A stretch of DNA of 64,000 bases from Butyriboletus loyo (Eukaryota; Basidiomycota; Agaricomycetes; Boletales; Boletaceae): positions 1-64,000 of the forward strand of contig JBBPSI010000082.1 in NCBI GenBank assembly GCA_038093515.1, written 5' to 3'. Positions 10,867 to 64,000 of this stretch are shown piece by piece. A program made the translations under genes and the position numbers. The notes below the pieces were generated by a model. The model was not told the origin of the DNA. It worked only from the letters and a program-made list of their open reading frames with translations, and searched no databases. Numbering within the stretch: position 1 is the stretch's first letter; each line of letters starts with the position of its first letter.

Positions 10867-13800
10867 ATGTTGGTGATGCCTGCTACACATACTAATTCCG
10901 ATCTTGAAACGACGAGCTCATCGGCATTCGACCGTACTCCTACAACATTTGATTATGCTGTTATTCATGTGTTTTTTCCTATCGAGCTTCCCGAACACAA
11001 CGACTATACTTTAGAAAACGATCTTTCACTAGCTCATGCAGCATGCGCTGCTGCCCACGCTTATAGCGCCCACGTTGAAGGAACCTCGCAGGCTCAATGG
11101 CATCGTATCACAAAGATGCTAGACAACTTGCAAGCCTCTGTCCAGTCTGAAAACCTCGACAGAGGCTACGTCGTCTCCCAGCTGCGTGGAATGCAAACAG
11201 GAGGTACGCTCACATGTTCTCTATGGATCTGTCCTGATAATCTATAGACATTCTTGTGTTTTTCATCCGACCTCAAAATGCTGCGGTTGTCCTCACGAAG
11301 CGGGAATATTATACACTGTTTGAATCTTTCGAGGTGTCCCCAGGCAATGATGCTGTAGAGAAGACGGCAGGGTCTCTGGTATGCTCGTATCCATGGTCGG
11401 CTGTCGAGATGGCGAGCGAGGTATTCGACGACGGGGAATTTCAATTCGAGCTCGCCAGTTTTCTGTCTCGCCCCAGCGCTGTCGACTCCAACCTTCCCTC
11501 TCCTCCCGCTGCTCGTTCGCAACATATCACTGCACTTCTGGCGGGCATCTTGCGAGGTGTTGGTCGCACTACTGACGTTCTTCGCATCACCAAGCGTGTT
11601 CGTGACGATGTTGTCCAGCGGTATCGGTTCGACGGCTCAGCCGAGGTTGTTTGGCGTCGCTCGTCGCTTTGGCTTCTCATCAGGGTCGCAACACAGACGG
11701 CTGTTGATCGTTCTCCTCCTGGACGCACCTCCTACAAGGAATTCATGTTATTCTTCATATGCACCCTTGCAATGGACCCAAACTACGCAAAGCTTTCCAG
11801 TGATCACCTTCATCTGATGTCATCTAAAATTTTCCGACGTTTAAGCAAGCTTGGTGCCTCTACCCCCGACTGGCTCTCTGAACTGGCGCTGAAGACGTGC
11901 ACTTGCCTTCGAGACATTCTTGACGCCAGATGGAAGCAGCTGAGCACCCGCACATCCCTATTTCGGAATCCTTCCCAGGAGGAACTAAGGAGAGACACAC
12001 AGCTGTCGCTCCTGGACAGTGGCGAATACATTCGCAACGCTCTCGTGAATCATCCCCGCGCACCCCTCGGTACTGGTTTCCACCCCAGCCATCATCGTCG
12101 CGGCACTATTGATGATTTCTTATCATCGGATGGGTCCTTTTTTGACGAGGCATATGATGCGGACCCTGACGTCACTCTCTATGACGTGGAGCAATCGGTT
12201 GAACAGGGCATCGATAATTGGTTTGCCTGTGTCACGAATGTGGAGGAGGGATGCGCACAGCTCGAGATTTTGATGGATAAATACATGATCAAGGCTAGCA
12301 CTGGAAATCGGTTGGCCGACAATCCAGAAGATCACTCCATTATGTTCCTGACTGCGATTGAGCTTTTTGTCGCACTCGACAAGCTAGCTGTGAAGGAGAT
12401 TCCCATGCTTTCCGACTACTCTCCTGAAATCCTGGCAGATTTTATGGAAATGCTGCTCCTGCGCAAGACAACAAGCCTCCATCGCCTTGCTCGTGCATAC
12501 CAATATCTTGCCGCTCGCGAGTCAAAATCGCGTCTGGGATGGTCGGTGCTTTCCGATGAATTCACACAAGACAGTTTTGCCGTCCGTTATTATGATGAAT
12601 CCCCGCGACTTCAGCAGCTAAAGGCTTGTGTTGAACGTGACGAGATGGAAAAGGTCGCTAGACGTGTTGGCATGCAGCGAAAAGATGCCAGTCTTGCAGA
12701 TACGCGACAGGTGGCCGAGGGGACACAGGCTACCCAATCACCACTTCCCGCCTCGCCATTACACGCCAAAGTGGTCATATTTGAACTCCAATGCCCGCCT
12801 TATCTTCGTATCTGGCGTTCTGCCGCTTCTCGCATTCTGCATTATCTCTACCATCCTATTCATGTACATCGGTCATTCAATGCAGAGACAAAAGACGACC
12901 TACTTGCGCACATTCCCGAATTGCAGCCCTACTTTGTCAAGCGCAAGGGGCCACCGCTCTCCTTCCAGATGCACTTTACATATTCTCATCCAGGGGACCT
13001 GCAATCTGGAAATAGCCAGACATTACGTTATGCGATTCAGCATGTCGCACTTGGCAACAGAGAATACACCAATGTGCTAAGGGACCACCTCTCAACATGG
13101 CCAGAAAAGAAGAATAAATCTCTGTGCGACTTTGCATACCGTGTTCTAAACAACAATATCAACTATGTGTTTTCCACCCTTCGGACCTCCAACGAGGTCT
13201 TGGCTGCTCAAGCAGATTGTCCTTCGGATGTCTCCCTCGACGAATTCATTTCATTTGGACACTTGCGGAGTGGCGGTTGCCTCCAGTGGATCAATATCCT
13301 GAGGAGCCTGCGCAGTAGAACTCTCAACTTCCGTCATCGTGATGTTCATTACCTCCTTGCCCAGGCGGCCTCTCAGGTCGGACCACTTGATTTGAATGCG
13401 GTGCAGTGGATTTGGCATCAAGACCTTCAGGACTCCTCCTTTTGCAATGCCCTTCTGGACGAGCTCGACAGTTTGTTCGTGGAGGTTGGAGCTAGCTCGA
13501 TCGATAGCGTGGTGATGAGCACGATTTCCTTGTTGCTCACACGGGTGCTTGCATCGAGCCCCAGCGAACGCGTCTCGCAGCGAACCATCACACTTCTTCG
13601 AAGTGTACGCAGGAAGTCGTTCAGCTGGGTGCAGGAGCTATCATACAACCTGGTGATGGCACCTACAAATGAAGAACGCGGCAATCTCCTGCGGGACATG
13701 GCTCTCACGTGTCGAAGCACATTCGATGTTGACCCTGCTACTCTCCGCGAGCTCTTCCACTCTGCAGAGGATGTCGATGCGCTGCTTTCTTGCACCTTCT

Positions 13801-16800
13801 TAATATCTGCACTGCACCCCGAATGTATGTTGCATTCATGGAACTCGAGCGCCCGCTCAACTCTGCTAATTTCAACCCTTCAGTGGCCTTTGACCGCCAT
13901 TCACGACTGCTCCTTCAACGAGACCGTCGTCTCGCGCATGCTCTCGATGGAATCTTGGGGGACGTCATCCTCGCGGATCCTTCAGATTATGGTGTTGACC
14001 TCGCAGTTGGCAAGATTTTCACTAGCCACAGGGCAGGTGCACACAAATGGGAGCAGTTGCAGTATCCGAATGCTCGATGGCTGACATGCAGAACTAAAGC
14101 AACCGGGGATCAACCGTCGCAAACAGTGCACCTTGACCTGCTCAATGGTGTGCTTCGAGTGGATGGTCAACCATTGGGTGGATTGCCACGTGCGATTAAG
14201 GACTCTCCAGAATGCCAGCGGATCTTTCGTGATGTCCGTGCATGCTGCACCTTCCAATGTAACATACGTTACTGATCAGCATTTGCAGCAAGGCTTCTTT
14301 CTCATACCATCCGATCTCCCAGGAATGGATTTCACGACCCTAGCTACGACGTCAAAGCACAAGGTATGTAACATGCGCCAGCTTGAACCCCTCGTGACAC
14401 AATCGTGATTCAAATACATGCAGGTGCACTTTTCGCTGCGAGGTGACAATCTAGTGGTTCGAGCACAATGCAATGAATCACGTGATGTCCTCGAGCTGAT
14501 TCCTCCGACGAAACTGCGGGGAGACCTTCCGCCAACGCTCGTCGATGGCCATATTCACTGGTTGAACCTGTCCACAAAGACCCTCGAGATACGCCCTCTC
14601 GGACTGCTATGGGAACAGTCTTCAGAAAATTGGAGGATTGACTGCGCATCTGGGGAGTTTCGTACGCACAAAGGTCGCGAGACCCTAGTCGATATCCGAA
14701 GTTCAACGTGGCAAATGGTTTCGCAGTGTTTCAAGTGTCTCAACAATCTCGACCATCGCGAGGATTTATATAAACATGTCCATCTCAACAATCTCGGCCA
14801 TTTCGACGATATCAGCTCATTTCTCAAGCACCGGGCCAACAATCTCCTCGTTTCTGTTTCACCCATGGACTCTCTTCCATACGTTCCAATGCAGCGACTC
14901 TCTGTTACATTGGATCGCTGTGGGTTGTCCTTTTTTGTCAATGAGCGGGAAGAACTTGAGTCCCGTGACTTCAAGGATATGGTTTACGACGAGGATCAAT
15001 GCGTTGGGACACTCTTCGGTTTGGAGAACCTCCTCGTTCTCCGGCAGAAAATTCCCCTTCCAGAAGAACTCATTCCCAGACGCATCATCATACCGCGTGG
15101 ACCTCTTGAAAAGCATGGCGATCATCGTGTTCGGGTCGAGAACGAATCTACTGCCTATCATATCTACAACGTGGATGCTGAACTGGGCCGCTTGGCATGG
15201 AATGGCAGCTTAGAAAGCACGCAATATCTTGCCAATCTGCATGCGATGACTAGCTGTCATAGGCCTGATCCACTGACGGGCAAAACGGGTGCTCAAGCAG
15301 CACTTTGTCTATTACAGTCAGCTGGGTGTCGCTCAATCATGAAACTCAAAACCCTCGATGGGAACTGGACTGCAACCCAATATCCCCAAATCAATTCTGC
15401 ATACCAGGAAATCCTTCATAGATATTACTGGAATCGCAGTGCATATGACAAAGAACCCGTCAGTGTTGCAGACAAGCGTGCAGCGCGACGAGCTGCGTAT
15501 CTATTCCCCCCGCATGCTACTGGACCATCCCTGGAAGACTGTGACAACAGTGACTACTTGACCCTAGATTCGGACTTGGAGCTTCAGGATATCGCCTCTA
15601 CTGCAGCATCTGCCGTTTGCCGCTGGCCCTCCAGTGTGCTCATTATAAATATTATATCGAACTGGGCGGAACTGTGGAATGGCGGCATCGGTGCGGATAC
15701 TGATACTCAACCCCTTCTGGACGACGGCCCGGGAATATGGTCGAATCCCGAGCTTGTGCAGACACTACTGAACAAGGTACACGACACCCTGGAGAACAGG
15801 GAGGGAACTCGTCGGCGCTTTCAGTTGTTATTCTTACTTCCAGAAATGGCGTACTGTTCACCATACCATCAAGCCGCCTTCCTCTCAATGCTCATAACAT
15901 TCGCCAAACAGTCGCAATCCGATTCAAGCGATCCACAGATCCATGTTGGGTGCAAGATTTTGGATGGATATCGTCTCACTGAGGAAGTCTTGCGGTATCA
16001 TATTTATAGGTTCCTTAAGGAGCCTGAATGGGGTTGGGACCGGCACGAGGAGGAGGCTGTTATCGATCATGCTGTGAAACGCTTGCTCAAGGACTGGTCA
16101 TCTGATACCCCTCCGAAGGTCTCGTTGAATTCTCATTACTGGGACGTGGCAGGTTTAACAGACAGCCTCCGAGAACTATTCTTCAGCTGCTGCCGCAACT
16201 TCTATCTCAAGGAACATCTTATACGTGTCCTTGCAGACGGACTACCCACTCTTCAGCGCCCGGTCTCGTCTCTGGTATATATTCTCGATGAGCATACACC
16301 GTTGCAGATTACAGTCGATCAGCTGCTTTCAAGCCGACCGGCGCCAGAATTACCTCCCCGTAGCTTTTTCTTGCGCGACAGCTATAAGAACAACAAGACG
16401 TCATCGAATGATACTCCCACATTGGACCAACTATTCTCTTCTCTTCGAACCAACCCTTCAATCAAACGGGCATACATCACCCGCCTTAATGCCAGTGCAC
16501 AACACGTTCGCGAGGATTCCCAAATACCACACAGAGTAGCAGCGGATACTCTCATCCAGCCACTGAAGAAACATTACGCACAGTGTAGAGTAACCTACAT
16601 GGATGCTTTGGCCATCCTCAAGCAGAGTCTTGGTCCAACAACTGATATCCATGAACAAGTACTACTCGAGCGATTTGGCCAATGGCCACAGATTACAGCA
16701 GATGTCCTCTTGCGATATCTGGCATCCACGTCGTCGATCGACCTCCCTAGACAGTGGGAGAAATGTTTGGTGTCATTAGCCCTGTTCCTTTTGGACCTTC

Positions 16801-19800
16801 AGCGTGCCCGGAGATTGCTCCGATTTGCTCTGGATGGTCTTGAAGAAGAGCTTTCGATGGAATTGCAGAACGAAGGATGTGACGGTTGGAATGCTGAAGA
16901 CCACCCAGATTGGTTGTTGATCCAGGTGCGTTTCTGGTGTTCGAGGGATAGTCCCTACTAACGATGCTGTTTTATTTTGTCAGATTCAGGGAAATTTTCT
17001 GATTCGTCGCACGCAGGTAGTGGCCGCAATGGAAATGATGTCCCCACAATCCGGGGAAAATACTGTAATCCAGGTCAACATGGGCGAGGGGAAATCATCT
17101 GTGATCATTCCCATCGCAGCTGCCACTCTCGCCGATGGAAAACAGCTTGTCCGTGTCATTGTTCCAAAAGCACAGACGGTCCAAATGTTCGAATCACTCG
17201 TTTCTCGCCTCGGCGGACTCGCCAACAGGCCAATATACCACCTGCCCTTCTCTCGTACCCCAGAGTACAACCAGAGTGGCGAATTGATCAGCCTTCAAAT
17301 TGATGATTTACACAAGCTCATGTCTCAATGCATGGCTGAGCGTGGAATTTTACTCGTCCAGCCCGAGCACGTCGCATCACTCAAGTTGATGAGTGTGGAG
17401 GAGCAGATACGCACAGGCAAACCTTTCGCCAATCCGTTACCGAAGCTTCAGAAATTGATTTACCAGCACATTACGACAGCCCAATCGGTGAGCACGAATA
17501 TTATATCTATGATCGTTCGATACAGCTGACTATTTAACATAGCTGCCGGGTGACAGCCTTGTAGGCAGCATGTTTCGACTGCTATGCCAGTTACCAGATT
17601 ACATGAGTAAAAAGGACGCTGTTCCTGTTGGCCATCATGGCGAGCGCGGTGGGCATGCTCACTGTGCTTCGGACAGTGCATCCAAGTGGCTGAGTCTTCA
17701 AACGTGGATTCATTCTCATGCTCGAGATATCCTGGACGAGAGCGACGAGATCCTTCATCCGCGATTCCAACTGATTTACACAATCGGCCACCGGCAACAC
17801 ATGGACGGATACCCTGATCGATGGACCATTACTCAACAGGTCCTCATGCTTGCGAAGAAGCATGCAGATTCCCTTTCCAGATATGTCCCTGACTCCATGG
17901 AGTATGAACGCGGTCCACCTGGATCGTTTCCATACATCCGCATTGAGCGAGCCTCTGACGTTGGTCGAGACCTAATATCATCCATTGCGGAAGACGTGAT
18001 GGCTGGACGACTTCCCGTTTTCAAGTTTCAAAACATCTCCCCAGCCCTGCATGACGCGATTCGCAGTTTCATATCCGAAGAAGATGTGCTCCGGGCTCCC
18101 GATACGCTCAGCATGGTGGAGGAGTATGCTAAGGATCTGCACGAAAGTCATTTGTGGAATGGACTACTACTACTCCGTGGTCTCCTGGCCTCCAACATCC
18201 TGCTGTTTGCTCTCACGGAGCGAAGATGGCGTGTTGACTATGGTCTTGACCTGCGCTCGCAAGACTCCGACCGTTCCAAGCCCTTCACAATGTTTGCCGT
18301 CCCGTATCGAGCGAAAGATGTGCCTGCACCCAACACCCAGTTCGGCCATCCAGATATTACTATCATTCTCACATGCCTATCTTACTACTATACTGGCCTC
18401 AGTGAGAAGCAGCTGAGAGTTTCATTCGAAGTCTTGCTAGACCAGGATGACCCAACGATGGAATACGCACTTTGGGTGAAAGAGTACGATTCCGAGACAG
18501 TTCCGGACTCGCTCCAGGAACTCGGTGAGATCAACCTCAAGTCATCGGAGCAATGGGACAAGGTCGTATTCCCGCTTTTCGCTCGAAATCAGGCAGTGAT
18601 AAATTTCTACCTCTCGCGGGTGGTGTTCCCACAGGAAGCCAAAGAATTTCCTTCGAAACTTTCCGCGTCTAGCTGGGATTTAGCAGAGAAACGGGAAAAG
18701 GCTATCACCGGTGAGTGAATCCACAGTTTATCCCGTGCCGTCCAACCCGGTCGCTGAACCAAGCGCCAGGATTCTCGGGCACGAACGACGGTCGATGGCT
18801 GTTACCCATGTCTATTGCTCAGCGCGACCTCGACCACCAGCAAGGGACCAATGCCAGGGTTCTCGCATACCTTCTTCAACCCGAAAATGACTTTTATATG
18901 CTAACTCACGAGAATGGCAAACGACGGACTACGGTTGAATTCCTGTACATGGTGGTCAAGCAACAGCCCGAAATTCGTGTCTTGCTGGATGTTGGTGCAC
19001 AAATCCTTGATCTTACCAATCGTCAGGTGACCGAAGCATGGCTCGACATCGCCCGGGATGCTGCTGGTGCCATCTATTTCGATGCGAATGATGAATTAAG
19101 CGTGCTCATGAAAAATGGCACCACTCAATCATTGCTATCGTCGCCGCTTTCTCAGCAGTTAGATCGTTGCGTTGTCTATCTGGATCATGCACACACAAGG
19201 GGCACGGACCTCAAACTCCCTATCGGGTCCCGAGCAGCTGTCACACTAGGACCGAAGGTCACAAAAGATCAGCTGGTGCAAGGTTTGTCTCAGCACTATC
19301 ATTCGATGTCTCAGTCTCACAGTGTGCGATTCCCAGGGTGCATGCGGATGCGCAAGTTGGGTCATGGTCACTCGGTCATGTTCTTTGCTCCACTCGGGGT
19401 TGATCAGACCATCCGTGCTGTGGTCGGCAAAAAAGATTCGAACACCCAAGTGTCTACCATCGACATTTTATGCTGGGCAATACACGAGACCTGCACCGAT
19501 ATACACGAGCGAGCTCCTTACTGGGCACAACAAGGCATGGGCCACAAATCGAGACACGACGCCTGGTCCCGTTTTTGCAATAATGAAGTCGGGGCAGATC
19601 AACTGGCGGATGTATGGCTTCAGCCAGAACTGAAATCGCTGGTCGATCTATATGCACCCTGTGGGACCAAAAATGTCCCTCGTACGTTGTCAGCGCTGGA
19701 TCCAGGGATCCGCCAACGCTGTAAAGACCTGGGGGTTCTATCACTTCCCACTGCACAGATGGAAGAAGAGCAAGAACGGGAGGTTAACCGTGAGCGGGAG

Positions 19801-20649
19801 CGTGAACGAGAGGTGGAACTGCCTCCCAGGGCAATACCGGCGAGACATAACCTTCATTCAGACATCGTCAACTTCGTGAACACCGGTGATCTTCCTCCAT
19901 TGCACTCCACCAGCGCCTTTCATCCCGTCTTCACAACGCTCGAAAACAGTTCTGCAGCTACCCGTGACGCAGACGTCTGGAGCTCATTTATCTTGGCGAC
20001 AACGGACTTCTGTAATACGATCAGACCCGAGTCCACTCTCGGGACCATAGATCAATATCTTCGACCTATCCAGTGGATTCTCTCCCGCAAACCCATGAAG
20101 GACCGCGACCAAGTACTCGTTCTGCTGAGCCCAGTTGAGGCTGATTTCTTGATGCCATCCATCAGGGCAAGCGAATTCGTCCACCTTCATGTGTATGCAC
20201 CCCGCACATCCCAGAGAATGAAACCATCCGACGATCTCCAACTTTATTCCATCCCTCCCCTGCCCTCCGACTGGACTCCGCCTTGGGCTCTGATCGACCA
20301 GCTCAACGTGTTCGCTGGGCAGCTCTATCTCAGAGACTATCAAGCGTACGTCCGACTATGTCGTTTCCTCAATGTACCTACGACGGATTCGCCAAACGAT
20401 GGAGTACTCCGGTGGAATCTGTTCGACATCCCTGGTAGTTTCGAAGAGAACGAAATCAGGTTCTCAGGTTCGCCGCTGCCTTGCATGTGGGCGCTATTTG
20501 CCATGCGGAACAGAGGGCGACCCTTCACGCACACGCACATGGGCAAATTGTTTCAAGGGCAGCCACTAACGGAGAAAGACTTTCAGGCAACAACGTGGGC
20601 TGCGTCTGGTCACAATCCTCCTGCATCTACAACAACATCTATGTGCTGA
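10867..20649 (+). CDS. Giant DUF6606-DUF3638-DUF3645 protein, copy A
   Basis: Member of a very large fungal protein family of unknown function. Eight exons by eye: 10867-11203, 11248-13824, 13884-14233, 14289-14363, 14424-16925, 16984-17487, 17543-18710 and 18770-20649; all phases close, giving about 3130 residues. The N-terminal region is DUF6606-like. DUF3638 begins near residue 1960 and contains a Walker A-like NMGEGKSSVIIP (about 1981-1990) and, near 2180, a Walker B-like ILDESDEIL, suggesting a helicase- or SecA-like P-loop ATPase core. DUF3645 follows near 2360 (FAVPYRAKDVP, then FGHPDITIILTCLSYYY). A charged Glu/Arg segment (VNREREREREVE) lies near 2470. Compared with copy B the C-terminus is shorter: about 130 bp corresponding to 46330-46460 is missing and the last codons are out of register, so the basic tail of copy B is absent. 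Start chosen by alignment to copy B. Biochemical role unknown. Confidence 0.9.
18575..19205 (+). repeat. 631-bp tract with no difference from copy B (44299-44929)
   Basis: Comparing by eye at a constant offset of 25724, I find no difference between position 18574 (g here, a in copy B) and position 19206 (g here, c in copy B). The tract covers the end of exon 7, the whole 59-nt intron 18711-18769 and the first part of exon 8. Both paralogues differ at many positions elsewhere, especially in the N-terminal half. Confidence 0.85.
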
Positions 20650-23055: not shown

Positions 23056-23135
23056 CGGTTCTGACGGGTTCTGACGGGTTCTGACGGGTTCTGACGGATT
23101 CTGACGGGTTCTGGCTGATCCTGACTGGTTCTGAC
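23056..23135. repeat. 10-bp minisatellite (ggttctgacg)
   Basis: About eight head-to-tail units of ggttctgacg; the first four or five are nearly perfect and the last ones diverge (ggttctggct, gatcctgact). On the minus strand the array is open and would read as Arg-Thr-Arg-Gln-Asn-Pro-Ser-Glu-Pro repeats, but there is no other sign that it is translated. Confidence 0.9.
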
Positions 23136-36584: not shown

Positions 36585-39500
36585 ATGTCTACCACCGCTA
36601 TCAACGCTGATCCCGAAACGACGAGCTCACTGGAATTCGTCCATACACCTACATCATTCCATTATGCTGTTATCCATATCTTTCTTCCTGTCCGGCTTCC
36701 CAAAAACACAGACTATACCGTGGAGAACGATCTTTCACTGGCTCGTGCAGTGTGCGCTGCTGCCCATGCTTATAGTGCACACGTCAACGAATCCCCTGAG
36801 CTTCGGTGGCATCGCATCACAAAGATGCTAGACAACTTGCAGGCCTCCGTCCAGTCTGAACACCTCGACAGAGGCTATATCATCTCTCAGCTGCACGAAA
36901 TGCAAACAAGAGGTACGTTCACAGATTCTCTATGAATCCGTGCTGACAAACTGTAGATATTCTTACGATTTTCATCCGACGGCAAAATGCTGCGATCGTC
37001 CTCACGAAGCAGGAGAACAGTACGCTGTTCGAATCGTTCGAAGTGTCTCCGAGGAGTGATGCTGTAGAGAAGACGTTGGGGTCTCTGAAATGTTCGTATC
37101 CCTGGTCGGCCGTCGAGATGCCGAACGAGGTGTTTGATGATGGGCACTTTCAGTTCGAGCTCGCCAATTTTCTCTCTTGCCCCAGCGATGTCGACTCGGA
37201 TTTTCCTCCCCCTCCTCTCACTCGTCCCCAATATGTCACTGCACTCCTGACTGGCATTTTGCGAGGTGTTGGTCGCACTGCTGACGTTCCTCGCATCAAG
37301 AAACGTGTTCGTGACAATGTTGGCCAGTGGCCGCTCGTCCCGTTCGTCCCGCTCTACCCTGACGGAGTCCAGGGTGATTGGCGTCGCTCGTCCCTTTGGC
37401 TTCTCATCAGGGTCGCAATTCAGACGTCTGTCAACCGTTCTCCCCTTGGACGCACCTCCTACAAGGAATTCATATTATTCTTCATATGCACCCTTGCAAG
37501 GGATCCAAATTACGCAAAGCTTTCCATTGATCACCTTCATCTGATGTCGTCTAAAATTTTATGACGTTTAAGCAAGCTTGGTTCCTCTACCCCCGACTGG
37601 CTCTCTGAACTGGCCCTGAAGACATGCACCTGTCTTCGAGACATTCTTGACGCCAGATGGAAGCAGCTCAGCACCCGCGCATCCCTATTTCGGAATCCTT
37701 CCCAGGAGGAACTCACCAGAGACACGCAGCTCTCGCTCCTGGACAGTCGTGAATACATTCGCAGCGCTCTCGCGAACCATCCCCACGAACCCTTTAGTAC
37801 TGCTTTCCACCCCAGCCATCAACACCGCGGCACTATTGATGATTTCTTGTCAGCGAATGGGTCCTTTTTTGACGGGGCACATGATGCTGACCCTGATATC
37901 ACTCTCTACGACGTCGAGAAATCGGTCGAGCAGGGCATCGATAATTGGTTTGCTTCGGTCGAAAATGTGGACGAGGCATGCGCACAGCTCGAGATTTTGA
38001 TGGATAAATATATGATAAAGGCTAGCACTGGCCATCGGTTTCACGGAAATTCAGAAGATCACTCCATCATGTTCCTGACTGCAATTGAACTTTTTGTTGC
38101 ACTCGACAAGCTAGTTTTGAAGGAGATCCCTATGCTTGCCGACTACTCCCCTGAAATTCCGATAGCCCTGCTGGAAAGACTGCTCCTGCGCAAGACAGCA
38201 AGCTTGCATCGCCTTTCTCGTGCATACCAGTATCTCTCTGTACGCCATTCTCAATCACATCCGGGATGGTTGGTACTTTCGAGTGAAGTCACTGAAGACA
38301 GTTTTGCCGTCCGCTATTACGACCAATCCCCGGATCTTCAGCACCTCAAAGCTCGCATCCAACAGGACTCGAAGGTACAGACTGCTGGCGGTGTTGGCAT
38401 GCAGCGAGAAGCTGCCAGTCTTGCACGCACCCAGGGTGGGTACCAAGAAAGTCAATGGCATCTATATGGGCGACGACTGACTAAGGGCACAGAGGCTTCC
38501 CAGTCACCATTGCCCGCCTCCCCATTACATGCCAAAGTGGTCACATTTGAACTCCAGTGCCCGGCGTGCCTCCGTATCTGGCGTTCTGCTGCTTCTCGCA
38601 TTCTGCATTATCACCTGTATCCCATTGATATTCCATCGTTGTTGTTTGACGCAGAGAATGAAGATAATCTACTTGCGCATGCTTCTGAATTGCGACCTTA
38701 CTTTGTCGACCGCAGAGGGCCACCCCTCTCCTTCCAGATCCACTTCCATTCGGGGGATTTACGATCTCGAAATAACCCGATATTTCGTTATGCAATCCAA
38801 CATCTCATCTGCACCAAGCGCAGTGAAAACGATGTTATCCTAACGGACCATCTCTCAATATGGAAGCCAAAGAACTACAACTTTGATGGGTGGTGGCTCT
38901 TGACACAATTCGCATACGGGGTTAAAAACATGTCTCTAAGAAACTATGTGATTTCTACCGCTCACACTTCTAACGACGTCTTGGCTGCTCAAGCACACTG
39001 TCCCGCGGATTTCTCCCTCGACGAATTCATCGCTTTTGGAAACTTGCAGAGTGGTAGCTCACTCAAGTGGTTCAACATCCTGAGGGGGCTGCACAGTAGA
39101 ACTCTTAACCTTCGTCGTCTCGATGTGCATTATCTCCTTACCCAAGTGGCCTTTCAAGTCGGACCGCTCGATTTGAATACAGGAGGGTGGCTTTGGCATA
39201 CAGAGCTTCAAGAGTCGTCTTTTTGCAATGCCCTTTTGGACGAGCTCGCAAATCTGCTCGTGGGGATCAGAGTCAGCTCGATTGATGGTGTGATGATCAG
39301 CACCATCTGTTTGTTGCTCACACGGGTGCTTGCATCGAGCCCAAGCGAACGCGTCTCGGAACGAGCCATCGCACTTCTTCGAGCTGTACGCAGGAAGGCA
39401 TTCGGCTGGGTGCAGGAGCTATCATACAACTTCGCAATGGCACCTACAAATGAAGAACGGGCCAATCTCTTGCAGGACATGGCTGCCACTTGTCGAAGCA

Positions 39501-42500
39501 CCTTTGACGTTGACCCTACTACTTTCCGCAAGCTCTTCCATTCTGCAGGGGACGTCAGTGTCATGCTTTCTTGTGCCTTCTTAATACGCACACTACAGTC
39601 TAGATGTATGTCCAATTCTTGAATCTCAAGCACCTTCTAAACTCACTGAGTAACTTCAATTCTTCAGCCACTGATGACAAATATTCACGACTTCTCCTTC
39701 AACGGGACCGTCGTCTCGCTCATGCTCTCGAGGGAATCCTGGGGGATGTAATCCGCGCGGAGGTGTCAGACTATGGCGTTGACTCTGCAGTCGGCAAGAT
39801 TTTCGCTAGCCACAAGCCAAGTGCTCATAGATGGGAGCAGTTGCAGGGTCCCAACGCTCGTTGGTTTACGTGCGAAACTCGAGCGACCGGAGACCAACAG
39901 CCGCAAACCGTGCATCTTAACCTGCTCGATGGTGTGCTTCGAGTGGACGGTCAACCATTTGGTGGATTGCCATGTGCGATTTGGTCCTCTCCTGAATGCC
40001 GGCGAGTCTTTCGTGATGTGCGTACATGTTGTAACTTCCGATATTACCACACGTCCTAACTAGAGTTTGCAGCAAGGCATTTTTGTCATACCATCCAATC
40101 TCCCAGGAATGGATTTCACGACCATAACCATGATGTCTACACACAAGGTACGTGAACCAACCTCTCATGACAAGATCACGATGATCCAAACACACGCAGG
40201 TCCACTTTTCGCTACGAGGTGACAATCTAGTAGTTCGAGCACAATGCAATCAAACAAATGCGATCCTTGAATTGGTTCCCTCAGGAAAACTGCGCCAAGA
40301 CCTTCCACCAGTGCTCGTTGATGGTCATGTTCATTGGTTGAACCTGTCCACAAGGATCATCGAAATACGTCCTCTCGGACAGCCTTGGGAACAATCTTCA
40401 GAGAACTGGAGGATTGATTGTGCATCTGGGCAATATCATGTGTACAAAGGTCGGGAGACCCTCGTGGATATCCGAAGCCCAACCTGGGAAATGGTTTCAA
40501 AGTGTTTTGAGTGTCTCAACAAAATCGGCGTAAACTCGAAGAGCCAGTCCAGAAATCTCCTAATCACCACATCTCCCGTCAGCTCTCTCCAATCTGTACC
40601 CATGCTAGGATTGTCTCAGATTGCATTGCCTCATTATGGGTTGTCCTTCTTCGTCAATGAGCGGGGAGAACTTGAGTCCCGTGACTTCAAGGACATGGTT
40701 TACGACGAGAGTCAACATGTTGGGGCGTTGTTGGGGTTAGAGAACTTCCTCGTTCTCCGGCAGAAGACTCACCTTCCAGAAGAACTCATTCCCAGACGCA
40801 TCATCATACCGAGTGGACTTCTTCAAAAGCATGGCGATCATCGTGTTCGGGTTGGGAACGAACCCACCGCCTATCATACCTACAATGTGGATACCGAACT
40901 GGGTTGCTTGATAGGGGATGGCAGCTTGATGAGCACACGATATCTTGCCTGTCTGCATGCCGCGACTAGCCACCATAGACCCGATCCTCTGACAGGAAAA
41001 ACGGGTGCTCAGGCAGCACTTCATCTCTTGCAGTCAGGTGGATGTCGGTCAATCATGAAATGCAAAGCTTTCTATGATGACCTGAATGCAAGTCGGACAT
41101 CAACTCAATATCCCCAAATCAATGCTGCACACCAGGAAATCCTTCATAGATATTACTGGAATCGCCATGCATATAAAAGCCGGCAAGCCGTCGGTGTACG
41201 ACACAAGCGCGCAGCACAACGAGCTGGGCATCTATTTCCCTCGAATGCCACTGGACTGTCCCCAGAAGACTGCGACGACATGGACTACTTGACCCTAGAG
41301 TCGGATTCGGAACTTGAGGACGTCACCTTCACTGCAGTATCTGCAGTCTACCGTTGGTCCCTCAGTGTGCCCAATATCAATACCATACTAGAATGGGCAG
41401 AACTGTGGAGCGATATCATGCGTGCAGATACTGCTGCTGACTCACTCTCCTTGCACGGTGACGGTGCGGGAATACGGCCGAGTCCCGATCTTGTGCGGAC
41501 ACTAACGGTCAAGGTACATGACATCCTGGAGAAGACAAAGGGAACTCGTCAACGATTTCAACTGCTATTCCTACTTCCCACAATGGTGTACTGTTCACCA
41601 TGCCATCAGGCCGCCTTCCTCTCGATGTTCATGATATTCGCTAAGCAATCACGGTCTCATTCGGGCGATCCACCAATCTACGTTAACTGCAAGATATTGG
41701 ATGGATATCGTCCCACTAAGGAAGTCCTGCGGTACAAGATTCATGGGTCTCGCCTCAAGGAGCAGCATTTAAATGTAGACGTGGAGAAGAATACAGTCGA
41801 TGTTGTGGTAAAACACTTGCTCAACTTGAAGGTTTGGCCATCTGATACCCCTCCGATGGTCTCGTTGGATTCTCGTTACTGGGACGTGGCAGGTTTAACA
41901 GACAGCCTCCGAGAACTGTTCTTCAGCTGCTGTCGCAACTTCTATCTCAAGGAACATCTTATGCGCGTCCTCGCAGACGGACTACCCACTCTTCAACGCC
42001 CGGTCTCGTCTCTGGAATATCTTCTCAATGAGCACACACCATTGCAAATCACAGTCGATCAGCTGCTTTCAAGCCGACCGGCGCCAGAACTACCACCCCG
42101 TAGTTATTTCTTGTGCGACAGCTACAAGAACAACAAGACGTCATCGAATGATACTCCTACATTGGACCAACTATTCTCCTCTCTTCGAACCAACCCCTCA
42201 ATCAAACGGGCATACATCACTCGCCTTAATGCCAGCGCACAACATGTTCGCGAGGATTCCCAAATACCACACAGGGTAGCAGCGGAGACTCTCATCCAGC
42301 CACTGAAGAAGCACTACGCACAGTGTAGAGTAACCTACATGGATGCTTTGGCCATCCTGAAGAAGAGTCTTGGTCCAACAACTGAGATGCATGAACAAGT
42401 ACTCGAGCGATTTGGCCAATGGCCACCGATTACAGCAGACGTCCTCTTACGATATCTGGCATCCACGTCGTCGATCAACCTCCCTAGACAGTGGGAGAAA

Positions 42501-45500
42501 TGCTTGGTGTCATTAGCCCTACTCCTTTTGGACCTTCAGCGTGCCCGGAGATTGCTTCGATTTGCTCTGGACGATCTTGAAGAAGAGCTTTCGATGGAAT
42601 TGCAGAACGAAGGATGTGACGGTTGGAATGCTGAAAACTACCCAGATTGGCTGTTGATCCAGGTGCGTTTCATCCGAGGAATGGTCCCTACTAACGATGC
42701 TGTTCTACTTTGTCAGATTCAGGGAAACTTTCTGATTCGTCGCACGCAGGTAGTGGCCGCAATGGAGATGATGTCCCCACAATCCGGGGAAAATACTGTA
42801 ATGCAGGTCAACATGGGCGAGGGGAAATCATCTGTGATCATTCCCATCGCGGCTGCCACTCTCGCCGATGGCAAACAGCTTGTCCGTGTCATTGTTCCAA
42901 AAGCACTGACGGTCCAAATGTTCGAATCACTCGTTTCTCGCCTCGGCGGACTCGCCAATAGGCCAATATATCACCTACCCTTCTCTCGTACCCCAGAGTA
43001 CCACCGTGGCAAATTGATTAGCCTTCAAATTGATGACTTACACAAGCTCATGTCTCAATGCATGGCTGAGCGTGGAATTTTACTCGTCCAGCCCGAGCAC
43101 GTTGCGTCACTCAAGTTGATGAGTGTGGAGGAGCAGATACGTACAGGCAAACCTTTCGCCAACACGTTACCGAAGCTTCAGAAATTGATTTACCAGCACA
43201 TTACGACAGCCCAATCGGTGAGCACGAATATTATGTCTATGATCGTTTGATACAGCTGACCATTTAACCCAGCTGCCGGGTGACACCCTTGTGGGAAACA
43301 TGTTTCGACTGCAGTTGCCAAACCACATGAGTAAACAGGACACTGCTCATGTTAGCCAGCATGGCGAGCGCAGCGGGGATGCTCACAGTACTTCGGACAG
43401 CGCATCTAAGTGGCTGAGCTTTCAGAAGTGGATTCATTCTCATGCTCGAGATATCCTGGACGAGAGCGACGAGATCCTTCATCCGCGATTCCAACTGATT
43501 TACACAATCGGCCACCGGCAACACATGGACGGATACCCTGATCGATGGACCATTACTCAACGGGTCCTCATTCTTGCGAAGAAGCATGCAGATTCCCTTT
43601 CCAGATATGTCCCTGACTCCATGGAGTATGAACGCGGTCCACCTGGATCATTTCCATACACCCGCATTGAGCGAGCCTCCGACGTTGGTCGAGACCTAAT
43701 ATCGTCCATTGCGGAAGACGTGATGGCTGGACAACTTCCCGTTTTCAAGTTTGAAAACATCTCCCCCACCCTGCATGACGCGATTCGCAGTTTCATATCC
43801 GAAGAAGATGTGCTCCGTATTCCCGGTACGCTCAGCATGGTGGAGGAGTACGCTAATGGTTTGCACGAAAGTCATCTGTGGAGTGGACTACTACTACTCC
43901 GTGGTCTCCTGGCCTCCAACATCCTGTTATTTGCTCTCACAGAGCGGAGATGGCGTGTTGACTATGGCCTTGACCTGCGCTCGCGAGACTCCGACCGTTC
44001 CAAGCCCTCCACAATGTTTGCCGTCCCGTATCGCGCAAAAGACGTGCCTTCCCTCAACACCCAGTTCGGCCATCCAGATATTACCATCATTCTCACGTGC
44101 CTATCTTACTACTATACTGGCCTCAGCGAGAAGCAGCTGAGAGTTTCATTCGAAGTCTTGCTAGACCAGGACGACCCAACGATGGAATACGCACTTTGGA
44201 TGAAAGAGTACTATTCGGAGACAGTGCCGGAATCGCTCCAGGAACTCGGCGAGATCAACCTCAAGTCATCGGAGCAATGGGACAAGGTCGTATTCCCACT
44301 TTTCGCTCGAAATCAGGCAGTGATAAATTTCTACCTCTCGCGGGTGGTGTTCCCACAGGAAGCCAAAGAATTTCCTTCGAAACTTTCCGCGTCTAGCTGG
44401 GATTTAGCAGAGAAACGGGAAAAGGCTATCACCGGTGAGTGAATCCACAGTTTATCCCGTGCCGTCCAACCCGGTCGCTGAACCAAGCGCCAGGATTCTC
44501 GGGCACGAACGACGGTCGATGGCTGTTACCCATGTCTATTGCTCAGCGCGACCTCGACCACCAGCAAGGGACCAATGCCAGGGTTCTCGCATACCTTCTT
44601 CAACCCGAAAATGACTTTTATATGCTAACTCACGAGAATGGCAAACGACGGACTACGGTTGAATTCCTGTACATGGTGGTCAAGCAACAGCCCGAAATTC
44701 GTGTCTTGCTGGATGTTGGTGCACAAATCCTTGATCTTACCAATCGTCAGGTGACCGAAGCATGGCTCGACATCGCCCGGGATGCTGCTGGTGCCATCTA
44801 TTTCGATGCGAATGATGAATTAAGCGTGCTCATGAAAAATGGCACCACTCAATCATTGCTATCGTCGCCGCTTTCTCAGCAGTTAGATCGTTGCGTTGTC
44901 TATCTGGATCATGCACACACAAGGGGCACCGACCTCAAACTCCCTATCGGGTCACGAGCAGCTGTCACACTAGGACCCAAGGTCACAAAAGATCAGCTGG
45001 TGCAAGGTTTGTCTCAGCACTATCATTCGATGTCTCAGTCTCACGGTCTGCGATTCCCAGGCTGCATGCGGATGCGCAAGTTGGGACATGGTCACTCGGT
45101 CATGTTCTTTGCTCCACTCGGGGTTGATCAGACCATCCGTGCTGTGGTCGGCAAAAAAGATGCGAACACCCAAGTGTCTACCATCGACATTTTATGTTGG
45201 GCAATACACGAGACCTGTACCGATATACACGAACGAGCTCCTTATTGGGCACAACAAGGCATGAGCCACAAATCGAGACACGACGCTTGGTCCCGTTTTT
45301 GCAATAATGAGGTCGGGCCAGATCAACTGTCGGATGTATGGCTTCAGCCAGCACTCAAATCGCTGGTGAATCTATATGCACCCTGTGACACTAAAAATGC
45401 CTTTCGTACGTTGTCAGCGCTGGATCCAGGGATCCGCCAACGCTGTAAAGACCTCGGGGTTCTATCGCTTCCCACTGCACAGATGGAAGAGGAACAAGAA

Positions 45501-46499
45501 CGGGAGGTTAACCGTGAGCGGGAGCGCGAACGAGAGGTGGAGCTGCCTCCCAAGGCAGAACCGGCGGAGCATTATCTTCATTCAGACGTCGTCAAATTCG
45601 TCAAGACTGGTGTCATCCCCCCATTGTACCCTGGCAGCGCCTTTCACCCCGTCTTCACAACGCTCGAAAATAGTTCTGCAGCTACCCGTGAGGCAGACGT
45701 CTGGAGCCCATTTATCTTAGCGACGGCGGACTTCTGTAATACGATCAGACCCGAGTCCACTCTCGGGACCATAGATCAATATCTTCGACCTGTTCAGTGG
45801 ATTCTCTCCCGTAAACCCCTGAAGGACCGCGACCAAGTACTCGTTCTGCTGAGCCCATTCGAGGCTGATCTATTGATGCCAGATATCAGGGCAAGCGAAT
45901 ACGTCCACCTTCATGTGTATGCACCCCGTACATCCCAGGGAATGACATCATCCAACGATCTCAAACTTTATTCTATTCCTCCCCTGCCCTCCGACTGGAC
46001 TCCACCTTGGGCTCTGATCGACCAGCTCAACGTGTTTGCTGGGCAGCTCTATCTTAGAGACTATCAATCGTACCTCCGGCTATGTCGTTTCCTTGACGTA
46101 CCTACGAAAGATTCGCCGAACGATACAGCAGTCCGGTGGAATCTGTTCGACATCCCTGGTAGCTTCGAAGATAACGAAATCAGGTTCTCAGGTTCACCGT
46201 TGCCTTGCGTGTGGGCACTGCTTGCCATTCGGAACAGAGGGCGACCCTTCACACAGACACACATGGGCAAAATTCTTCAAGGGCAGTTACTAACAGAGAA
46301 AGACTTTGAGCGGCCAACGTCACACGGTGCCACCTCCAAAGCTATACTCCCATCGCCTTGGGACATGCAGTGCGATACACAACTGCAAGACAACCCTGCG
46401 TCATCGGCCCTCCCTCGATCATCCAAACGGGGATTGGAAACGGCTGGACTATCCGTCGCAGATTCAGAACCACCGCAAAAGCGTCTACGTACGGATTGA
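36585..46499 (+). pseudogene. Giant DUF6606-DUF3638-DUF3645 paralogue, copy B, broken by one in-frame TGA
   Basis: Paralogue of copy A with the same eight-exon layout: 36585-36912, 36957-39605, 39668-40017, 40073-40147, 40200-42662, 42717-43217, 43273-44434 and 44494-46499, about 3177 codons. All intron phases are retained. One codon is a stop: TGA at 37562-37564 (codon 312), where copy A has CGA (Arg). A neighbouring TTC is TTA. No other break is seen across the following 8.9 kb, and I found no convincing splice pair that removes the TGA. The Walker-like motif (NMGEGKSSVIIP), DESDEIL and DUF3645 block are intact. The C-terminus has a basic tail absent from copy A (SSKRGLETAG, EPPQKRLRTD) that resembles a nuclear-localisation signal. 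Could be a young pseudogene, a sequencing error, or a gene read through or restarted downstream. Confidence 0.85.
44299..44929 (+). repeat. Copy B partner of the 631-bp identical tract
   Basis: Partner of 18575-19205 in copy A. The tract is flanked by single differences at 44298 and 44930 and includes the complete intron 44435-44493. Confidence 0.85.
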
Positions 46500-56270: not shown

Positions 56271-58460
56271 ATGGACTCGCCAAAACGTGCTGGATCGCCT
56301 TCCCCTTCCTCTGAAACGAAACGTATAAAGCTTACAGTTCCATTAGGCCAACAATCACAAGGTGCTACCCCCGTTGACCCCGAAAATGCACCAGGAAAGC
56401 GCTCAGAACTCGACCCCATTCAAGGTGGTGAGATTGGCAACATACACAACGACATAGATGGCGGTGGTGGTGGAACAAGTGGAGAAGGCGCCGCTGGAGA
56501 GGTGCGGGTGTTGAAAGAGGGCGAGGGCGAGGAGGATGCGGGCGACGTGTCGATGGCTGAGGTCGTCGATGAAGACGTCGAGTCGGGGGACGAAGGCGAC
56601 GACGAAGACCCCGCCCAACTCGAGGCGACACGGTTAAAACTCGAGGAACAAGCCCGAAAATACCTCGCAGCGCAGACGCACGACGTCATCATCCCTTCTT
56701 ATTCGGCTTGGTTCGACATGTCGACCGTTCATCCTGTCGAACGTCGTGCGCTCCCAGAGTTTTTCAATTCGAGGAATCGATCCAAGACGCCTTCGATTTA
56801 TAAAGAGTACCGCGACTTTATGATTAACACGTATCGTCTTCGGCCGACGGAGTATTTGACGGTGACGGCGTGTAGACGAAACTTGGCTGGCGATGTCTGT
56901 GCTATCATGCGTGTCCACGCGTTCCTCGAACAGTGGGGACTTATCAACTACCAGGTGCGGTTTGTTTCTGTAGTCTTGATGTCTTTTTCGTGCGTGCCAA
57001 CCGAATGGCTTTGAAAGATCGACCCAGAACAAAGACCGGCAGCACTTGTCCCTCCATTCACGGGACATTTCCGCGTCATCCTCGACACACCTCGTGGCCT
57101 TCAGTCTCTCCATCCCGGAACACGCCCTTCTAACACCCACCTCGCTGCCAATGGCGTGCCAAAAAATCACATGGCGTCCCAACAGCTCGGCGCTGCATCC
57201 TCTACCCTCAGTTCCACCGCCATTTCCGCTTCCCTCGAACTCCGCAATTCCATTTACCAAACCACCTCGAAAGCCTCCCGAGAACTAAAACCCGCCGAAG
57301 CCAAAACGCTCGCAAACGGTATTTCCTCGAATGCCAGAGGAAACATGTCGTACCAATGTGATACCTGCGGGACCGACTGTACCGCACTACGGTATCACAG
57401 TCTAAAGGTCAAAGACTTTGAGCTCTGTGCATCGTGTTATCTCGATGGGCGGTTCCCCTCGACCATGTTCAGCGGCGACTTTGTGAAGTTGAGTGCTGCA
57501 CCGCCTGGCGTTGGCCATGGTGCAGATGACGAATGGACGGATCAAGAGGTGTTGTTACTACTGGAGGGAATTGAGATGTATGACGATGATTGGACCGCTA
57601 TCGAGGATCACGTCGGGACGCGCACGGCACAACAATGTATACGCAAATTCCTCTCGTTACCGATCGAAGACCCGTACATTGCAGCGGAAGGGGATCAGGG
57701 GCCGCTCAGATATGGGAAGATTCCGTTCGAGCAGGCGGATAATCCTGTGATGAGCGTAGTGGCGTTCCTCGCGGGTGCGGTGAACCCTGCCGTTGCCGCC
57801 GAAGCAGCCAAGACGGCCATGCACGTTCTCGCCGAGGGCGGTGCGTCAAAAGAAACCGAGACCAAAAAACAAGGGAACATGAAGGAGGATGTGGACGACG
57901 AGAAGCTCGAGAGGGGGGATGCGATGCAACAAGACGTCCCAGAGGCACCATCTGTACCACCCAATGGTGAACCGTCGATCAAGAATGGTACGGAGGGTCC
58001 GCAGGGAACCGACATGGTCGTTGACCAACCTACGGAGTCGACCAAGCCTATGCCGAAAATCTCTCATTCCCACGTAGCGCGCGCTGCGGGACTCGCTCTC
58101 AAATCCTCTGCGCGTGCTGCATCGGCACTTGCGGATGCGGAGGACGCGACGATTCGAAGCACGCTTGCGTCGTTGATCAAGTTGACGCTGACCAAACTGG
58201 AGCTGAAGATGACCGCGTTTGAGGAACTGGAAGAGCTTTTGGAGGAAGAACGAAAAGGTCTGGAGAGCACACGGATGGCGCTCGTCAACGAGCGGGTGAA
58301 TTTGAAACGGATGTTGGACGGGGTGAGAGCCGAGCTGGGCAAGAATGCCAATCTTGGGACGACGAGTCAGGGGACGCCGGTGAGCGAGGTGCCGTCGGGG
58401 ACGCCGATAGAAGGGGACGTGGGTCCGGTGAGCGATGGTAGTTTTGCGCAGCTGGGTTGA
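56271..58460 (+). CDS. RSC8: SWI3/RSC8-type chromatin-remodelling subunit (SWIRM-ZZ-SANT)
   Basis: Core scaffold subunit of SWI/SNF or RSC chromatin remodellers, acting in the nucleus. Two exons by eye: 56271-56954 and 57018-58460, giving 708 residues. The SWIRM domain (about 138-235) runs from [11 protein letters not shown] through [20 protein letters not shown] and continues after the intron with [10 protein letters not shown]-type zinc finger (about 340-376) shows [10 protein letters not shown] and [14 protein letters not shown]. The SANT domain (about 400-450) has [20 protein letters not shown] and [18 protein letters not shown] long C-terminal coiled coil (about 615-680, [20 protein letters not shown]) is the usual dimerisation region. 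The N-terminus is acidic ([11 protein letters not shown]). The start at 56271 (MDSPKRAG) was preferred over the upstream in-frame ATG at 56175, which adds a Cys/Arg-rich extension. Confidence 0.95.
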
Positions 58461-62210: not shown

Positions 62211-62793
62211 CCACAAGAAGCTGCGTTGTTGTGGATGCCCACCAGTTTAAATATTGGTGAAATCAATGAGTCTATGTGAATTTGTATGTGTTCAGAGGGC
62301 AGAATTTTCCTGGTGTTGTCGCAGCATCTGTTTTGCATCACAATGCCAATGCACTACTCAAAGGATATAATTTATTATTATCATTATAGGCAATGTAAAT
62401 GGTCGGAGACTCATGAAAGTACTGCGTTTGCTGGACAGGAAATATGCATGCAGCAAGAGGTCCGATTCTGCGTGTTCTTCTATACGACGGTATGTTGGAA
62501 TATCATGATCCAATAATGCGCTAATTTTTCTTTGTTTTTTGTCTATGGCAGTTTCCGGGGTCCTAATTTTCGTCAATGTTCGGATATGTCCGTCTTCTCT
62601 CAGTTTAGCAGAGAAAAAGCCCGAGTGTTAACAGGGCACGTATAACTCTAACTCCACGTGAAAAACAAAACTTATTTTGTCCGGCCAGCCTGAGGTTCGT
62701 TATAACGTCAAAAAGCCCACCGCCTCTTAATGCTTTCGGTGGTCACTGTTGCTACAGAAAAATCATGGGCGATAGTCAACGCACACTGGACGC
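62211..62793. other. Intergenic, A/T-rich, with one decayed array unit at the end
   Basis: No gene supported; short AT-rich runs. The last 50 bp (about 62740-62793) are a degenerate half-unit of the micro-exon array that follows, with a recognisable acceptor (tttttctgtag on the minus strand at about 62763-62753) but no working donor. Confidence 0.55.
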
Positions 62794-63563
62794 TCAGTCT
62801 CTCCCGTAGTTCCTACAGAAAGCCCATGGGCGATAGACAACACGCTGAATACACAATAGTCACTCACTGGGTATTGCTTCTACAGAAAATCTGTGAGCAA
62901 TAGCCAATGCATGCTGAATGCACGGTGGACACTCACGACGACCCATTGTTCCTACAGAAAACTCGTGAGCAACAGACAACACGCTGAATACACAATGGTC
63001 ACTCACTCGGTATTGCTTCTACGGAAAATCCGTGAGCAATAGCCAATGCATGCTGAATGCACGGTGGACACTCACGACGACCCATAGTTCCTACAGAAAA
63101 CTCGTGAGCAACAGACAACACGCTGAATACCCAATGGTCACTCACTCGGTATTGCTTCTACAGAAAATCTGTGAGCAATAGCCAATGCATGCTGAATGCA
63201 CGGTGGACACTCACGACGACCCGTTGTTCCTACAGAAAACTCGTGAGCAACAGACAACACGCTGAATACACAATGGTCACTCACTCGGTAGTGCTTCTAC
63301 GGAAAATCCGTGAGCAATAGCCAATGCATGCTGAATGCACGGTGGACACTCACGACGACCCATAGTTCCTACAGAAAACTCGTGAGCAACAGACAACACG
63401 CTGAATACCCAATGGTCACTCACTCGGTATTGCTTCTACAGAAAATCTGTGAGTAATAGCCAATGCATGCTGAATGCACGGTGGACACTCACGACGACCC
63501 ATTGTTCCTACAGGAAACTCATGAGCGATGGCAAACACACTGAATATACGATGGACACTCACT
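62740..63563 (-). repeat. 139-bp tandem repeat = intron/micro-exon array
   Basis: The string actcactcgg or actcactggg recurs at 62862, 63001, 63140, 63279 and 63418, a constant 139-bp spacing. Each unit is two related half-units of about 67 and 72 bp. Adjacent 139-bp units differ in a fixed alternating way (tat or aat/aac codon; acagaaaatctgt or acggaaaatccgt), so the larger copied block is probably 278 bp. On the minus strand each half-unit is one intron plus one short exon. Confidence 0.95.
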
Positions 63564-63750
63564 GGCGGCGGTTGAAGTTGAGCCCTTCGGGCCCTCTGAC
63601 TTCGATGTCGATATCCACGCCCACGCCAGGCTCATGCTTCACCGCCTTCGTGTCAGGGGCACCATAGACGGAAGGTGAGATGGGCAGCGCAGCTACCACT
63701 GCAGCGGTGCTGAGCCAGAGCATGAGCCTGTTGCGCAACATGATGTTCAC
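62794..63750 (-). CDS. Small secreted repeat protein encoded by serial micro-exons
   Basis: Twelve exons by eye: 63750-63563, 63507-63493, 63435-63424, 63368-63354, 63296-63285, 63229-63215, 63157-63146, 63090-63076, 63018-63007, 62951-62937, 62879-62868 and 62812-62794; about 113 residues. Ten internal exons are 15 or 12 nt, and the eleven introns are 55 or 57 nt. All donors read GTGAGT and all acceptors end TGTAG or CGTAG; every junction is phase 2. Exon 1 gives a signal-peptide-like start (LMLWLSTAAVVAALPI after a basic MNIMLRNR, possible cleavage near VYG-AP), then VDIDIEVRGPEGLNF and a dibasic NRR. The spliced repeat is QNNGSSSNT, ENYGSSSTT, ENNGSSSNT, ENYGSSSNT, ENNGSSSNT and a last QNYGRD. 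An internal start (63741) is possible. I know no family for it. Expression and splicing are inferred from sequence only. Confidence 0.72.
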
Positions 63751-64000
63751 GGGCGGAGATGAGTTATGAGTCGATTTTAAATACGTGCGTCAAGGAAAGG
63801 GGCGGGACTGTTTTCCTAACTCACTTCGCCAGCATGCTCAAACACTTCAGTGTTTGAAGAGGGCAGACAGCTGCCACCACATGTCACAGTCAATGACGAG
63901 TCTATGGAAGATGCGGTGACGTCCGCTGTTTACACGGGCGGAGATAAAAGTTATGTTAGTTTTGCAAGAAGTTCGCTCAGGTAGGTGATGATGGATTTTC
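63751..64000. promoter_or_regulatory. Upstream region of the micro-exon gene
   Basis: The string cacgggcggagat just before the start codon (63748-63760) recurs at about 63934-63946, each time followed by an agttatg string, so part of the leader is duplicated 186 bp upstream. This could be a second promoter or leader, or the start of another copy beyond the window. Confidence 0.45.

Follow-up and report, generated by a model that had tools for sequence, protein, structure and literature searches.

In the 64,000-nucleotide stretch of DNA analysed here (the window), we identified a gene of a family that encodes small, putatively secreted peptides, which has most likely grown by tandem copying of an intron together with a microexon, and whose members would normally be spliced and processed by a Kex2-type protease. 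We assign this reading a probability of roughly 0.8. The structure, the phases, the family and the unit copying can be read from the sequence, from which we infer splicing, secretion, the Kex2 cut, disorder and a role outside the cell. The product is probably a disordered secreted peptide, rich in Ser, Asn and Thr.

The window gene is readable on the minus strand at 62794-63741, with 12 exons and a predicted product of 110 residues. Exon 1 (63563..63741; 179 nt), whose paralogues were found by translated search, encodes MLRNRLMLWLSTAAVVAALPISPSVYGAPDTKAVKHEPGVGVDIDIEVRGPEGLNFNRRQ, with the final codon finished by exon 2. Judged by eye, it comprises a signal-peptide-like start and a short propeptide, and it ends in ...FNRRQ at intron 1, where a dibasic RR, also assigned by eye (the exon ends in Asn-Arg-Arg), stands immediately before the microexon array. 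Intron 1 (63508..63562; 55 nt, GTGAGT...TGTAG, phase 2) leads to microexon 2 (63493..63507; 15 nt), and the array continues on the same strand with intron 2 (63436..63492; 57 nt, type B), microexon 3 (63424..63435; 12 nt), intron 3 (63369..63423; 55 nt, type A), microexon 4 (63354..63368; 15 nt), intron 4 (63297..63353; 57 nt, type B), microexon 5 (63285..63296; 12 nt), intron 5 (63230..63284; 55 nt), microexon 6 (63215..63229; 15 nt), intron 6 (63158..63214; 57 nt), microexon 7 (63146..63157; 12 nt), intron 7 (63091..63145; 55 nt), microexon 8 (63076..63090; 15 nt), intron 8 (63019..63075; 57 nt), microexon 9 (63007..63018; 12 nt), intron 9 (62952..63006; 55 nt), microexon 10 (62937..62951; 15 nt), intron 10 (62880..62936; 57 nt), microexon 11 (62868..62879; 12 nt) and intron 11 (62813..62867; 55 nt). 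The predicted peptide after NRR reads Q-NNGSSSNTE-NYGSSSTTE-NNGSSSNTE-NYGSSSNTE-NNGSSSNTQ-NYGRD.

Terminal exon 12 (62794..62812, minus strand; 19 nt) encodes NYGRD and a stop, which falls at the site of a decayed 12th donor. The relict 12th intron (62752..62797) retains its acceptor TGTAG at 62752, and the TGA of its decayed donor now serves as the stop codon of the gene (62796-62794). Beyond it lies a relict terminal exon (62727..62751) with the end ...KH and a stop, as in the paralogues C369 and C404, which could be reached in frame only with exon 12 skipped. On the other side of the gene, the promoter and 5' leader region (63760..63909, minus strand) is common to the paralogues, includes TTTAAAATCGACTC and falls in a DNA match at C82:63298-63909, C82 being the handle of the window contig and its gene. 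Part of a second, upstream promoter copy occupies 63959..64000 on the same strand and runs to ~64163 on the contig (match C82:63959-64163). The window gene is preceded by two tandem copies of the family promoter (C82 ~63760-64163), the outer of which has no exon 1 after it.

The first-pass annotation had described a 139-bp tandem repeat on the minus strand, made of introns and very small exons, and TRF recovers it at 62809-63563 with a period of 139, 5.4 copies and 93% matches. The details it gave were also found: all eleven introns start with GTGAGT (nine end in TGTAG and two in CGTAG) and alternate between 55 and 57 nt, the ten internal exons are multiples of three that alternate between 15 and 12 nt, and all 11 junctions are in phase 2. 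The array reads in frame as a nine-residue repeat behind the signal-peptide-like exon (the signal peptide being an assignment by eye), with a coding share of about a fifth (154 nt coding and 615 nt intron, or 20%), and the start given for the feature was exact, at the last base of the stop codon. The ten internal exons, which are symmetrical and 12-15 nt long, hold 135 of the 333 coding nucleotides, and a composition mostly of microexons holds for the predicted mature part only. The relict 12th donor and acceptor with the old terminal exon, a 278-bp higher-order repeat and the gene family go beyond that earlier reading.

All six occurrences of the pattern TGTAG-N(9-36)-GTGAGT-N(35-62)-TGTAG in the window fall inside the array, and 100 shuffles gave 0.01 on average. 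Because the 11 introns were copied recently, their 11/11 agreement does not amount to 11 independent observations. Genome-wide, the same strong-site pattern gives 24 matches against 38 for the backward control and is therefore no rarer than the control; 15 of the 24 lie in the family and the other nine at single places elsewhere. The strong-site motif alone is thus no proof, and it is the serial repetition at constant phase that proves the structure, for which the paralogues are the independent evidence. The openness of the repeat unit is not evidence either, since more than one of its frames is open (by eye), and the frame is fixed by exon 1. An unspliced reading of the array was ruled out by 9-11 stops in each of the six frames, and an RNA gene was rejected, since at gathering scores no part of the window matched Rfam.

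A search of the 30.3-Mb genome revealed thirteen loci with a shared promoter (~110-250 bp) and/or exon 1, namely C82 (the window), C206, C369, C404 (two), C30 (two), C201 (two), C109 (two), C36 and C6, a number that is a lower bound because the search scores best candidates only. Further traces are a remnant on C19 that lacks exon 1 and, on C101, 55 bp matching the promoter. Since the same genome has paralogues that share its promoter and exon 1, the locus looks like a gene and not a satellite. Six genes can be read through: C82, C206, C369, C404, C201b and C109a, the last two with a single phase-2 intron. The gene models were found via splice motifs, and one acceptor, the GGCAG of the last C206 intron, was added manually. 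The C206 model has exons of 119, 15, 12, 15, 12, 15 and 16 nt and the peptide Q-TTGTTGSDD-TTGTTSSDD-TTGIHPNSV, so that the 15/12 design is retained with a different peptide (TTGTTSSDD as against NYGSSSNTE). The C369 model (182, 15, 24, 24 and 31 nt, with GC at the first donor) gives Q-NSGGNGNQ-SSGNNGNQ-SSGNNGSQ-HYGPKH, and the C404 model (179, 15, 24 and 34 nt) gives, after HRR, NTGSNGNQ-NTGSNGTQ-NTSRSKH. In all four array genes (C82, C206, C369, C404) Arg-Arg stands at the end of exon 1, right at the intron. Six further paralogues (C30a, C30b, C201a, C109b, C36 and C6) stop before the intron. The window gene is without two dibasic sites that C369 and C404 have, and this, with the decayed 12th donor, could mean that it is drifting.

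Inverted copies are found at two of these loci. The C404 gene forms a near-perfect inverted pair (C404:11467-14527; 99.3% over 1395 bp), which is either a recent duplication or an assembly effect, and the C369 gene is flanked by inverted repeats of ~87% identity (C369:8321-9013 and 10923-11783), whose arms hold helicase-like coding remnants, as judged by eye.

The exon lengths of the family indicate how the array arose. In the six read-through genes exon 1 measures 179, 182, 179, 119, 176 and 173 nt, always 2 modulo 3, and the microexons measure 12, 15 or 24 nt, always 0 modulo 3. The introns of the family have lengths of 53, 55, 57, 62 and 64 nt (range 53-64), which cover all three residues modulo 3. 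First and internal exons thus differ by multiples of three only and introns do not, which indicates that the repeat grew by copying of intron and mini-exon together; the earlier proposal to this effect is borne out by the comparison of paralogues. The first-pass annotation had also asked for splice sites and phases to be kept at orthologous loci; among the same-genome paralogues, phase 2 was found at 26 of 26 junctions in the six genes.

The splice signals are similarly uniform. The donor is GTGAGT in 25 of the 26 introns of the read-through genes and GCGAGT in one; intron 1 of C369 is the sole GC donor among the 26, and its retention gives no immediate stop. AG stands at the homologous acceptor site in 25 of 26, and in the remaining one, the last intron of C369 (intron 4), the acceptor lies 7 nt downstream. 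A branch-like motif, CTCAC or CTCAT, is found ~15 nt from the intron end in 23 of the 25 introns aligned from the five modelled genes, and in the last intron of C369 the motif is farther from the end. Among the paralogues that stop before the intron, three of six have a non-AG acceptor (TGTAA, TGTGG, TGTCG), or four of seven counting C19. Compared by gene, the excess of acceptor loss is not significant (one-sided p of 0.18 for 4/7 vs 1/6 and 0.27 for 3/6 vs 1/6), in a contrast that scores the shifted C369 acceptor as lost and is made by gene because the introns of one gene are not independent. Acceptor decay is consistent with selection for splicing, with too few cases to prove it. We discarded it as strong evidence for splicing, since in two of the four losses, those of C201a and C36, an AG lies 3 nt downstream of the lost acceptor, and the C369 acceptor has itself moved.

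The introns of the array look ordinary for this genome, since other introns in the window are similar in length and donor. Two of these, each at two duplicated sites, were deduced from tblastn matches to proteins of Boletus and Tylopilus, in a search restricted to 45-90 nt; they appear to be ~53-59 nt long, with donors GTGAGT or GTGAGC. A further intron near 56950, seen by eye, has GTGCGG as its donor, so that GTGAGT is not universal here. A protein database search with the spliced family proteins returned only P0001 and P0002, with no named protein among the listed matches. Both are public, contig-derived proteins and unspliced open reading frames, corresponding to the first exons of C369 and C404, and they match the genomic reading letter for letter. 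Such genes can be missed, as in the protein collection searched, where the family was represented solely by the first exons, unspliced, of two members.

The history of the array can be followed in its introns. All 25 introns in the five gene models can be aligned as a single family, in which types A (55 nt) and B (57 nt) of C82 diverge by ~20%. The intron tree joins C206 introns 2, 4 and 6 to the type B introns of C82 (support 0.88). Type A is not cleanly grouped, with C206 introns 3 and 5 at other positions, and supports are low for sequences of 55 nt. Together with the shared 15/12 order, the tree suggests that the alternating intron pair predates the split of C82 and C206. Introns 3-6 of C82 are identical to introns 7-10 (0/224 differences), which indicates a recent duplication of 278 bp. 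By eye, the exon of 24 nt in C369 and C404 looks like a 9-nt piece joined to the 15-nt exon. With paralogues that have from one to eleven introns, the origin and growth of the array can be read stepwise.

In our reading, a promoter, an exon 1 encoding a signal peptide and a short propeptide, and one intron are common to the family, and in C82, C206, C369 and C404 this intron was copied repeatedly in tandem along with the neighbouring 12-24 coding nucleotides, the 278-bp block being the latest step in the window gene. Each new copy adds 4-8 residues with the frame unbroken, because the unit is one intron plus a microexon of length divisible by three. The transcript would normally be spliced at all junctions, intron by intron as is the norm for fungal introns of such length, and the precursor would be secreted and cut after NRR by a Kex2-type protease. 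The mature peptide, Q-(NNGSSSNTE / NYGSSS[N/T]TE)n-NYGRD, would be encoded nearly entirely by microexons, and is predicted to be soluble, disordered, rich in Ser, Asn, Thr and Gly, and free of Cys. If length variants are made, their sources would be differences between strains in the copy number of the array, together with intron retention or skipping. Fungal Kex2-processed repeat proteins (KEPs) have repeats separated by dibasic cleavage sites; we rejected membership in this group for the window gene, which has RR before the array, but there is no dibasic site between the repeats of C82, C206, C369 or C404.

A neighbouring 644-aa protein has its best named matches, among the best 120 of 1221, in Boletus coccyginus (72%), Boletus edulis (70%) and Tylopilus felleus (65%), the first of which belongs to the Boletaceae, Boletales. 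The host probably belongs to the Boletaceae. This family is usually ectomycorrhizal, from which we guess that the peptide, if it acts outside the cell, may do so towards tree roots.

Exon and intron divergence were also compared. In five chosen comparisons, the exon and intron differences are 3/54 vs 0/224, 9/27 vs 20/112, 8/39 vs 13/117, 2/27 vs 4/112 and 1/24 vs 1/62, higher for exons in each and significant alone only in the first. The Mantel-Haenszel odds ratio of exon to intron change over the five is 2.6 (one-sided p 0.0009), falling to 2.2 (p 0.005) after trimming of donor and acceptor and to 1.9 (p 0.034) with the branch region trimmed too. Excluded from this ratio are intron 1 of C82 vs C206 (p-distance 0.20), further C82/C206 unit pairs, and the last exon (8/31) and last intron (7/57) of C369 vs C404. 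We take the faster change of microexons as suggestive only. It could mean that the mature peptide is under diversifying selection, as host-interface genes are, with microexons outpacing introns, and the repeats of C82 and C206 (8-10 nonsynonymous and 0-1 synonymous differences) point the same way. On the other hand, the sample is tiny and its comparisons are not independent, C369 and C404 have a pS of 0.40 above a pN of 0.21, and the introns may be held by splicing signals, so that we consider such selection possible, at somewhat less than even odds.

It has also been considered that the array is kept since variable splicing, by skipping or retention, yields peptides of different length; the first-pass annotation had raised a ladder of peptides by skipping as a possibility. 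Skipping would change the product in steps of 4 or 5 residues, and all 66 donor-acceptor pairings are in frame, which is automatic when a phase-symmetric unit is copied. Retention of any of the 11 introns leads to an immediate TGA, after ...RRQ, ...NGSS/NYGSS or ...NTE/TTE/NTQ, a consequence of phase 2 together with a donor that begins with GTGA; this makes truncation at least as likely as skipping, although such early stops may just cause decay. Neither the in-frame pairings nor the retention stops show regulated splicing. The 12th acceptor would allow an in-frame alternative end, ...HNSDHRKH, like the KH ends of C369 and C404. Against this, the splice sites are uniform in look and not tuned for choice, and the only products matched in the protein database were the unspliced frames of C369 and C404. 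Fungi mostly recognise short introns as units, which favours retention over skipping, and intron retention is the commoner of the two in fungi. We regard a splicing ladder as the reason for keeping the array as rather doubtful.

No better placed is the view that the array is a selfish tandem repeat, expanded by unequal crossing-over, in which selection keeps only splicing and frame and the function of the peptide is slight. The recent 278-bp duplication with its identical introns, the weak conservation of the peptide between genes and the six paralogues that stop before the intron all fit it, but frame and phase are kept across genes with different arrays, and the four array genes all retain RR where the array begins, and we hold this view to be unlikely. 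A comparably tentative proposal is that the family evolves by cassettes: each copy would add an in-frame microexon with a built-in retention stop, copy number would cap the length of the peptide, splicing efficiency would grade the shorter peptides, and microexons would outpace introns. That the locus is a non-coding satellite or pseudogene which mimics introns and exons is very improbable, since paralogues with other arrays keep the phase and share the promoter and the signal-peptide-like exon, even though the units are recent copies, the strong-site pattern by itself is not rare in the genome and no transcript was seen (unspliced frames only in the protein database). Introner-like elements are near-identical introns spread across unrelated genes, and this candidate was rejected for the array, as a genome search that scored best candidates only found no intron copies beyond the family loci and the C19 remnant.

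The preferred reading, growth of a secreted-peptide gene by intron and microexon copying, has its closest counterpart in animals. In the SmPoMuc genes of Schistosoma mansoni, according to the sections of the source available, a 27-bp exon within a ~1 kb tandem unit codes for a repeat of 9 residues (PMC2576457). Like them, the window gene has a signal peptide (here assigned by eye) followed by a tandem 9-residue repeat, and exon plus intron form the tandem DNA unit; a truncated member that is without repeats and a highly conserved intronic part (over 93-94%) are further likenesses that these sections report (PMC2576457). They differ in that SmPoMuc has units of ~1 kb with microsatellites and one exon per repeat, as against 139 bp and exons of 12 + 15 nt here, and in that its transcripts are described as exceeding the genomic repeat number, in an animal parasite (PMC2576457). 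The likeness is one of way of working and not of descent, and the window gene is not a member of that family. The schistosome micro-exon genes (MEGs), as far as the available parts of the sources go, encode secreted proteins with very small symmetrical exons and alternative splicing, with a high dN/dS in the mature parts of some (PMC10526429, PMC4350168). They share with the window gene the tiny symmetrical exons and the (here predicted) secretion, and are unlike it in their introns of 100 to almost 5000 bp, in exons that these parts do not describe as copies of a short unit, and in kingdom.

Among fungi, the accessible text on the SP7-like effectors of arbuscular mycorrhizal fungi describes a signal peptide, imperfect hydrophilic repeats and a conserved intron before the first repeat, as here (PMC11333574). 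By the same description they are set apart, with one conserved intron, no microexon per repeat and an occurrence in Glomeromycotina only (PMC11333574). The AGL cell-surface proteins of Glomeromycotina likewise have an intron beside the signal-sequence cleavage site, and that this intron is more conserved than the mature coding sequence may be counted as a likeness; unlike the window gene, they have one or two introns and a GPI signal, with no microexon array described in the portion of the source consulted (PMC8786786). For Xlr2 of Trichoderma virens, the abstracted source of 2024 reports a functional microexon, with none described earlier in filamentous fungi, in a transcription-factor gene, and mentions no array or copying, unlike the present case (PMC11121469). 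The first-pass annotation had known of no fungal gene of such a build. This stands in so far as we found no fungal gene with tandem intron-microexon units in the full-text literature, mostly outside subscription journals, but the principle is known from SmPoMuc. The family would be the first fungal case found of a repeat peptide growing by copying of intron plus microexon, convergent with the blood-fluke genes, with units about seven times smaller than those of SmPoMuc.

Elsewhere in the window, two long, similar copies of a DUF6606 gene region lie ~26 kb apart (11256-20649 and 37043-46499), and some relatives are named ubiquitinyl hydrolase. A 10-bp tandem repeat, GGTTCTGACG, is present in ~8 copies at 23057-23135.
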